Shown: positions 887-1,836 of the stretch, in pieces
Layout of the letters: each line of letters opens with the position of its first letter
Numbering within the stretch: position 1 is the stretch's first letter
NCBI RefSeq assembly: GCF_000711875.1
Contig: NZ_JONM01000008.1
Location: 186,001-250,000, forward strand
Length of the DNA stretch: 64,000 nucleotides
Direction of reading: 5' to 3'
Source of the DNA: Andreprevotia chitinilytica DSM 18519
GTDB taxonomy: Bacteria; Pseudomonadota; Gammaproteobacteria; Burkholderiales; Chitinibacteraceae
Program-made: the position numbers and the translations under genes
Notes under the pieces: generated by a model
Told to the model about the DNA's origin: nothing
Database searches by the model: none
What the model saw: only the letters and a program-made list of their open reading frames with translations

Positions 887-916
887 AAAAAGCCCCGCCG
901 ATATCGACGGGGCTTT
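887..916 (-). terminator. Terminator of the small secreted protein genes
   Basis: Near-perfect palindrome AAAGCCCCG-C-CGAT/ATCG-A-CGGGGCTTT, with a T-rich tail on the minus strand. It sits about 50 bases after the stop codon of the last of the three minus-strand cysteine-rich protein genes. The plus-strand side is also T-ended, so it may work in both directions. Confidence 0.75.
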
Positions 917-967: not shown

Positions 968-1135
968 TTAGTCGTTCGGACAGTTTTGAACAGCGATGAT
1001 GCAAACCGAGTTGGTCGAGCCCTGATCGCATACATGATGACGGATATCGCACCACAGTGTGTCAGCAAAAGCCGGTCCGGCTACCGCAAATGTCAGTCCC
1101 AAACCCATAAGCAGCGAAGCAACGATCTTTTTCAT
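968..1135 (-). CDS. Secreted four-cysteine miniprotein, paralogue 1
   Basis: Small protein of 55 residues, not recognised as a known family. It has a clear Sec signal peptide (MKKIVASLLMGLGLTF then AVAGPAFA, cleavage expected before Asp25). The mature part is about 31 residues with four cysteines in a C-x6-C-x8-C-x6-C pattern. The core WCDIRHHVC carries a His-His pair. An upstream in-frame ATG would extend it by 28 residues. I chose the internal ATG at 1135 because it begins the signal peptide and matches the starts of both paralogues next to it, with an AAGGGAC ribosome-binding-like stretch upstream. Two disulfides in the periplasm or outside the cell, or metal binding by Cys/His, are possible. 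No function can be assigned. Confidence 0.8.
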   Translation of the reverse strand: MKKIVASLLMGLGLTFAVAGPAFADTLWCDIRHHVCDQGSTNSVCIIAVQNCPND

Positions 1136-1173
1136 AATGCGTAGTCCCTTTTTTGAGTGGTTACTGCTAAATG

Positions 1174-1189
1174 TCTGCCAATTGGCAGA
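1174..1189 (-). promoter_or_regulatory. Leader hairpin/palindrome of paralogue 1
   Basis: Perfect palindrome TCTGCC-AATT-GGCAGA, 39 bases before the start codon. The same position in the two paralogues holds a hairpin of different sequence but the same pairing, which suggests a conserved RNA stem or an operator. Confidence 0.6.
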
Positions 1190-1251
1190 TTCTTTTACGC
1201 GCAAAAACTTGTTTTGCACTTTGATTCATTTCAATTGCGTTTAATTGCGAC

Positions 1252-1268
1252 TTGTCGCGCGGCGACAA
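1252..1268 (-). terminator. Hairpin just after paralogue 2
   Basis: Inverted repeat TTGTCGC-GCG-GCGACAA beginning immediately after the stop codon of paralogue 2. It lacks a T run, so it is a weak terminator or an RNA-stabilising stem between two tandem genes. Confidence 0.4.
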
Positions 1269-1269
1269 A

Positions 1270-1440
1270 TCAGCCGTTTACGCAGTATTCGTTTGCAAGG
1301 ACGCAAACGTTATTGGTCGAGCCTTGATCGCAGACGTGATGCTTGATCTCACACCAAAGCCCACCGTCGGCTGATGCCGGCGCAGCTACAGCAAAAGTCA
1401 GACCCAAACCCATCAGCAGTGAAGCAACAATCTTTTTCAT
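1270..1440 (-). CDS. Secreted four-cysteine miniprotein, paralogue 2
   Basis: A 56-residue protein found by comparison with its neighbours and easily missed because of its size. The translation begins MKKIVASLLMGLGLTFAVAA and has a signal peptide ending APASA before Asp25. The mature part contains LWCEIKHHVCDQGSTNNVC and ends EYCVNG. The cysteine spacing C-x6-C-x8-C-x6-C and the HHVC core are the same as in paralogues 1 and 3. Ribosome binding is probably from AAGGAA about ten bases upstream of the ATG at 1440. The hairpin leader is also conserved. Family and function are unknown. Confidence 0.78.
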   Translation of the reverse strand: MKKIVASLLMGLGLTFAVAAPASADGGLWCEIKHHVCDQGSTNNVCVLANEYCVNG

Positions 1441-1476
1441 ATTGCGTATTCCTTACTTGAGCGATTGACAGGGGAG

Positions 1477-1494
1477 ATCTACCTATTGGCAGAT
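1477..1494 (-). promoter_or_regulatory. Leader hairpin of paralogue 2
   Basis: On the transcribed strand ATCTGCC-AATA-GGTAGAT, 37 bases before the start codon. As RNA it forms seven pairs with one G-U wobble, at the same place as the hairpins of paralogues 1 and 3. Confidence 0.55.
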
Positions 1495-1511
1495 CCAGAA
1501 CTTATGCTGCG

Positions 1512-1596
1512 CAGCCAATCAGCCAATCAGCCAATCAGCCAATCAGCCAATCAGCCAATCAGCCAATCAGCCAATCAGCCAATCAGCCAATCAGCC
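1512..1596. repeat. Tandem repeat (CAGCCAAT) x 10.6
   Basis: Ten perfect copies of the 8-base unit CAGCCAAT from 1512 to 1591 plus a partial CAGCC. The array overlaps the stop codon of paralogue 3 (1591-1593) and fills the gap up to the leader of paralogue 2. The unit looks like an expansion of the GGCTGATT sequence found at the gene end, since paralogue 2 also ends GGCTGATTTG. Eight is not a multiple of three, so slippage changes spacing but not the protein. Confidence 0.97.
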
Positions 1597-1758
1597 GTTC
1601 GGGCAGTTTTGATATGCCTGCTCGCACGAAATATAGGACGGATCTTTCTCGCAGACATGATGTTTGATATCGCACCAAGGATTAGTGTCAGCGAAAACCG
1701 GAGCCGACACGCCAAGCGTAATTCCCAGACCAATTAAAAGTGCAACGATTGTTTTCAT
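1591..1758 (-). CDS. Secreted four-cysteine miniprotein, paralogue 3
   Basis: A 55-residue protein with a Sec signal peptide (MKTIVALLIGLGITLGVSAP then VFA, cleavage before Asp25). The mature sequence contains NPWCDIKHHVCEKDPSYISC and ends QNCPNG, with the same C-x6-C-x8-C-x6-C spacing as its two paralogues. It is first in transcription order on the minus strand. The start at 1758 is preferred over an upstream in-frame ATG because it begins the signal peptide and aligns with the paralogues. Its C-terminal half diverges more than that of the other two. Function unknown. Confidence 0.78.
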   Translation of the reverse strand: MKTIVALLIGLGITLGVSAPVFADTNPWCDIKHHVCEKDPSYISCEQAYQNCPNG

Positions 1759-1795
1759 ATTGCGTAGACCTTTTCTTGAATTGTGACCGCTAAAT

Positions 1796-1813
1796 ATCCG
1801 CAGGGGTGCGGAT
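1796..1813 (-). promoter_or_regulatory. Leader hairpin of paralogue 3
   Basis: Perfect inverted repeat ATCCGCA-CCCC-TGCGGAT, 38 bases before the start codon. Relative to paralogue 1, paired positions have changed on both sides (compensatory changes), which supports a real stem. Confidence 0.55.
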
Positions 1814-1836
1814 TCTTTTGGTGCGCTAAAACGCAT

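Follow-up and report, generated by a model that had tools for sequence, protein, structure and literature searches.

Three adjacent minus-strand genes in the window (the whole 64 kb stretch of DNA that was analysed) encode mini-proteins that share an invariant four-cysteine frame, C-x6-C-x8-C-x6-C. They are real, constrained genes, because relatives are found in five genomes and dN is lower than dS for each of the 24 member pairs with a computable dS. The reading to which we give an even chance is that the products are orphan exported mini-proteins, oxidised helical hairpins that bind a periplasmic or extracellular target. Such a binding role outside the cytoplasm is suggested because the invariant residues are of the scaffold type, predicted helix 1 carries a conserved charged patch, and the loop that follows it is variable. 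The features of the region are collected in Table 1.

Table 1. Mini-protein genes, 5′ leaders, and neighboring elements in the window. Coordinates of genes 1 to 3 include the stop codons.
Feature	Position	Strand	Description
Gene 1	968..1135	(-)	55-aa precursor; mature part DTLWC...CPND, 31 aa; QGSTN-type loop
Gene 2	1270..1440	(-)	56-aa precursor; mature part DGGLWC...CVNG, 32 aa; QGSTN-type loop
Gene 3	1591..1758	(-)	55-aa precursor; mature part DTNPWC...CPNG, 32 aa; DPSY-type loop
5′ leader of gene 1	1136..1200	(-)	Stem-loop 1173-1190, purine-rich ribosome-binding-like stretch; RNA fold z -2.35, 6/200 shuffles as good
5′ leader of gene 2	1441..1505	(-)	Stem-loop ~1475-1496; RNA fold z -1.60, 12/200 shuffles as good
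5′ leader of gene 3	1759..1823	(-)	Stem-loop 1796-1813; RNA fold z -1.61, 11/200 shuffles as good
Perfect 8-bp tandem repeat	1512..1596		Unit CAGCCAAT, 10.6 copies; from repeat scan
Possible terminator after gene 1	889..916	(-)	G+C-rich inverted repeat followed by T; by eye, absent from the terminator scan list

A preliminary description of this DNA had reported a tandem triplet of secreted precursors of 55 to 56 residues, with invariant four-cysteine spacing in mature parts of about 31 residues and no recognised family. The three minus-strand ORFs are confirmed, the spacing is seen in the mature parts of all three and is kept in relatives elsewhere, and none of the three genes has a Pfam or NCBIfam match up to E = 10. 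The remark that one copy falls under the usual gene-calling size finds no support in the lengths, as no copy stands out as smaller (55, 56, and 55 aa). The frame occurs four times in the six reading frames of the window, three of these being genes 1 to 3; in 50 mononucleotide shuffles of the window it turned up 0.06 times on average and at most once. The precursors appear to carry Sec-type signals: a short basic stretch is followed by a hydrophobic core and, as judged by eye, by a likely cleavage site (A-x-A in genes 1 and 2, V-F-A in gene 3) with Asp next in each. Across the family, a Sec-like signal ending in [AV]-x-A before an acidic residue was recognised by eye in seven of the eight members. 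The triplet is flanked on one side by a plus-strand gene ending at 773, which we take from its sequence to be sucD, and on the other by a minus-strand gene of the uracil-DNA-glycosylase superfamily (2147-2638, PF03167).

Genes 1 to 3 are tandem duplicates, and each unit includes a leader of its own. Their alignment shows similarity in both the 5′ leader and the coding part, and the start codon lies within TACGCANTATGAAAA. The leaders can form stem-loops that end 34 to 38 bases ahead of the start codon. By eye, and with only three copies to compare, some pairs have both partners changed between the stems of genes 1 and 3. The leader RNAs fold only somewhat better than their shuffles. A scan for terminator-like sites gave three, with 1.9 expected, and two of these are the leader stem-loops read on the opposite strand. 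No clearly matching stem-loop element was seen in the leaders of the five other members. The three Rfam matches are all below the gathering score, a sigma-70 promoter scan found none, and a regulon search with the gene 3 leader returned, besides itself, short matches at E 0.4 to 4.9, one of which is the gene 2 leader. The 8-bp repeat overlaps the stop codon of gene 3 where it begins and runs to 71 bases short of the start of gene 2; slippage in it would alter the spacing and leave the protein unchanged. Lying upstream of gene 2, this slippage-prone repeat might affect the expression of that gene.

The family comprises eight intact members, with three in the window, two in A. lacus DSM 23236 (NZ_FWXD01000011.1), and one each in Andreprevotia sp. 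IGB-42 (NZ_WXTX01000003.1), in G023, a genome of the same taxonomic family, and in G255, a genome of another family. Within the taxonomic family of the window, 4 of 43 genomes (the three Andreprevotia and G023) have members at E below 1e-17, and in the genus of G023 (g4) a member is present in one of three genomes. G255 is the one further genome found in an order sample of 399 and the only one with a member among the ten examined from its own family (f21). The class (369 genomes) and phylum (398 genomes) samples, which like the order sample are incomplete and overlap one another, contain no credible members other than the window's own genes. The IGB-42 member has no ATG upstream of its signal core, and TTG was taken as the start; the start, and perhaps the expression, of this copy is therefore uncertain.

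Membership was counted strictly. A search at E <= 1 matched 49 of 61 genomes, of which the four with the whole four-cysteine frame were counted, the others giving partial matches. At E <= 0.2, 10 of the 43 genomes of the taxonomic family were matched, and the six besides those with members gave partial matches (E 0.039-0.18). Matches were dropped when they covered the signal peptide only (G056, E 4.1e-4), when they contained two stops (G008, E 0.005), or when they fell on stops or unrelated longer frames, as did two in the order sample (E 0.0036 and 0.0042) and two in the class sample (E 0.0058 and 0.0098). Two of four loci from the pattern search (L034 and L035) are chance matches within long frames. 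Three further weak matches lie in the genome of the window itself, two of them in stretches with other ORFs and the third, at E 0.247, not counted.

No member exceeds a Pfam cut-off. One of the eight gives sub-threshold matches to DUF6520 (E 0.0041, 17.9 bits vs a gathering score of 25.4) and DUF3551 (E 0.12, 12.9 vs 26.5 bits); both start in its signal-peptide region, whereas the other seven members are unmatched. The best PHROGs matches are at E 0.11 for gene 1 and 0.052 for gene 3, and a PDB sequence search gave one unrelated entry at E 0.13, a second search none. A phage or plasmid origin was set aside, as a tblastn search with gene 3 against 50,697 phage and 72,556 plasmid records gave nothing at E <= 1; likewise, 11 stretches of viral contigs fit a pattern and none encodes a relative. 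A known anti-phage protein was rejected with PADLOC, which gave nothing at E <= 1. The literature search found no paper on these mini-proteins, no occurrence of "twin CX6C" among the matches listed, and nothing on DUF3551. The portions of the IGB-42 secretome study (PMC8802321) and of the HS-3 study (PMC9555858) that were available do not mention such peptides.

Four of the five genomes have a member no more than 2.4 kb away from sucD. In the window, IGB-42, and G023 it sits directly past sucD in convergent orientation, and in A. lacus one copy is situated 2.4 kb past sucD. The 43 sucD genes of the taxonomic family gave 30 loci that were scanned over 1.5 kb downstream (323 bases in the case of L081), and three of these, those of the window, G023, and IGB-42, contain a four-cysteine member. 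In G018, a genome without the family, a glycosylase-like ORF of 161 aa is seen by eye about 1 kb past sucD (L071, 3185-3670), and the sucD-glycosylase neighborhood may therefore be older than the mini-protein genes. Together these loci suggest a family that settled beside sucD in this lineage, with duplication, movement, and loss. Either a weapon or a niche-specific envelope factor would be consistent with the patchy occurrence, the duplication, and the decay.

Between sucD and the mini-protein gene of A. lacus (L037, 2617-4904) stand three ORFs that match no Pfam family, and the second intact copy of this species (L036) lies elsewhere, near phosphopantetheinyl transferase and beta-lactamase-family genes. 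Another A. lacus contig holds a decayed fragment (L055, 420-572) in which only the last two cysteines are recognisable, in ...CITTYQNCPNG. The fragment adjoins a PF03167 glycosylase gene, of the same family as the glycosylase of the window, and on its other side an insertion-sequence transposase-like ORF, identified by eye and without Pfam match. G255 has its member at yet another place, after a same-strand glutaredoxin-like gene (PF00462), with a TonB-dependent receptor beyond. This glutaredoxin-like gene (L061, 5569-5970) has a hydrophobic N-terminus, and the adjacency is possibly a coincidence. Among the neighboring genes examined, none was recognised as serving immunity, maturation, or dedicated export.

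The conserved residues point to a scaffold. Invariant in all eight members are the Trp, the four cysteines, the Ile at C1+2, and the Ala at C3+3; an acidic residue after C1, an acidic residue after C2, and a basic residue at C1+3 are likewise kept in all eight. No position of the loop is invariant, and the loops are of two kinds, QGSTN and P-[SF]-Y, with DTGHDNPV as an outlier in one A. lacus copy. The net charge of the mature part (K+R-D-E) ranges from -3 to 0. The WC-[DE]-I-[RK]-HHVC core given in the preliminary description is present in the three window copies and is relaxed in the family at large, in which HH is found in four of eight members and the first His in seven. Neither an invariant His nor an invariant polar residue of one kind exists among the eight.

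These patterns bear on the proposal that the peptides bind metal or take part in thiol-redox chemistry through the HH pair or the four cysteines. HH stands beside acidic residues in the three window copies, and the glutaredoxin-like neighbor in G255 would suit a redox role, but that neighbor is present at one locus only and the mature part of the G023 member has no His at all. HH was thus rejected as a conserved metal-binding motif; a conserved metal site is unlikely, because the pair is limited to half of the members and all invariant residues look structural. The earlier suggestion of metal binding is weakened accordingly, and we regard metal or redox function as highly improbable.

The family is under purifying selection, and nothing points to positive selection. 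For the 27-residue core of the eight members, dN is 0.13 to 0.51 and dS is computable in 24 of the 28 pairs, the other four being saturated; dS is often above 1, so that dN/dS ratios are rough. Among the window copies dN is below dS in five of six comparisons, which are all those with computable dS. Gene 3 and one A. lacus copy (C36) share 89% of core residues and 75% of bases. The variation that had been likened to that of diversifying toxins is real in that the signal peptides are better conserved than the mature parts (genes 1 and 2 keep 92% of residues in the signal peptide and 63% in the mature part), but diversifying selection is not supported, dN being below dS wherever dS is computable.

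Purifying selection, together with structural invariants, acidic to neutral mature parts, and a Sec signal with no export system beyond it, would also suit a periplasmic mini-protein that serves the envelope in housekeeping or under stress, for instance a modulator or stabiliser of an envelope protein whose dosage is raised by duplication. Its presence in only 4 of the 43 genomes of the taxonomic family is odd for a housekeeping function, however, and no conserved partner gene is found beyond the sucD neighborhood. We hold such an envelope role to be unlikely.

The reading as binding hairpins is in line with the predicted fold. AlphaFold2 was run on the mature parts of genes 1 and 3 with five-row alignments, and in both loop kinds it places one C-x6-C pair on each of two helices that form a hairpin (residues 4-13 and 22-28 in gene 3, 3-12 and 19-27 in gene 1), with the fourth cysteine one residue beyond helix 2. 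The best models have mean pLDDT values of 89.7 and 84.6, and the five models per job go down to 57.5 and 67.6. Disulfides are not observable in these models. By its spacing, an antiparallel hairpin would pair C1 with C4 and C2 with C3. Foldseek searches of the PDB and of viral models, as well as VIA-align, gave no useful match, which says little for a 32-residue model.

The closest architectural likeness is to the glycocins. The C-x6-C-x8-C-x6-C frame of all eight members recurs unchanged in glycocin F (Cys 5, 12, 21, and 28), ASM1, and thermoglycocin. ASM1 is identical to glycocin F over the frame region, and both share with the present family the Trp before C1. The disulfides of glycocin F are nested (5-28 and 12-21, in the section of PMC5890784 used here), and those of thermoglycocin are given as 7-30 and 14-23 in the relevant part of PMC12139839. 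Two helices and nested disulfides are known in these glycocins, whereas the helices and the pairing are predicted here. Similarity of residues to glycocin F beyond the cysteines, in a shuffle test that was chosen after the likeness had been noticed, gives p 0.010 when the Trp is included and 0.105 when it is left out. Because similarity beyond the cysteines and the Trp is not significant, common descent is not shown and the likeness is architectural.

Beyond the frame, the features tested do not fit a glycocin. Glycocin F carries its sugars at Ser18 (C2+6) and Cys43, whereas C2+6 is Asn or Tyr in all eight members and none of the mature parts has a fifth cysteine; other Ser or Thr residues of the loop could in principle carry a sugar. 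The glycocin leader is removed by a C39-peptidase transporter (as stated in the part of PMC12139839 consulted), in contrast to the Sec-like signal here, and the present family differs from glycocin F, ASM1, and thermoglycocin in its Gram-negative host. The usual glycocin gene clusters are described in portions of PMC8620827 and PMC6405829. In the genome of the window the best match to a SunS-type enzyme scores 27.3 bits (E 3.0e-6), the cut-off being 350, and in a control of 14 genomes ten give matches and one exceeds the cut-off. With a Sec signal, no SunS-type enzyme over the cut-off in the genome of the window, no fifth cysteine, and no Ser/Thr at the acceptor site, these mini-proteins are not glycocins.

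A glycocin-like bacteriocin in a wider sense, a sugar-free hairpin that is released and inhibits competing bacteria through a membrane or surface target, is rather doubtful. The exact glycocin F frame with its Trp, the tandem copies with differing loops, and the uneven distribution, along with the decayed A. lacus fragment, speak for it. Against this, the mature parts have a charge of -3 to 0, dN is below dS, the neighbors examined include no recognised immunity gene, C39 transporter, or glycosyltransferase, the genome lacks a SunS-type enzyme over the cut-off, and plain Sec export alone would strand the peptide in the periplasm. Furthermore, the sugar-free precursors of pallidocin and its relatives are inactive, according to the part of PMC6405829 that covers them.

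If the products are target-binding hairpins, their action may proceed as follows. The precursor would be exported by Sec and its signal cleaved. Oxidation in the periplasm would then form the nested disulfides C1-C4 and C2-C3 and yield a rigid helical hairpin of about 31 residues. It would act by binding a partner rather than by catalysis or metal coordination, either in the periplasm or after release. Helix 1, with W-C-[DE]-I-[KR], would present a constant face, and the inter-helix loop together with helix 2, by which the family divides into two main kinds, would provide a variable recognition face.

If the fold holds, the family offers a very small natural two-disulfide helical hairpin on the glycocin F frame, one that would be made in a Gram-negative cell through plain Sec export and with no sugar machinery. 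It would allow the share of glycocin behavior that resides in the bare hairpin to be tested and would supply a compact scaffold. The secretomes of chitin-degrading bacteria should now also be searched for this small-protein family, which no Pfam or NCBIfam model covers. That Gram-negative chitin degraders use such Sec-exported, sugar-free hairpins on the glycocin F frame against competitors, with the loop choosing the target, is improbable; as a speculation, a target in the sugar uptake of bacteria living off released chitin sugars would fit the niche.

Other known hairpins resemble the predicted fold with a different spacing. The twin CX9C (CHCH) proteins are built from antiparallel helices stapled by two disulfides, a likeness to the present model, but their spacing is C-x9-C and they are mitochondrial. 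Plant alpha-hairpinins have a twin C-x3-C spacing, compared with C-x6-C in all eight members here. The likeness in their case lies in the four cysteines on a helix-loop-helix, as described in the portion of PMC11591084 considered.
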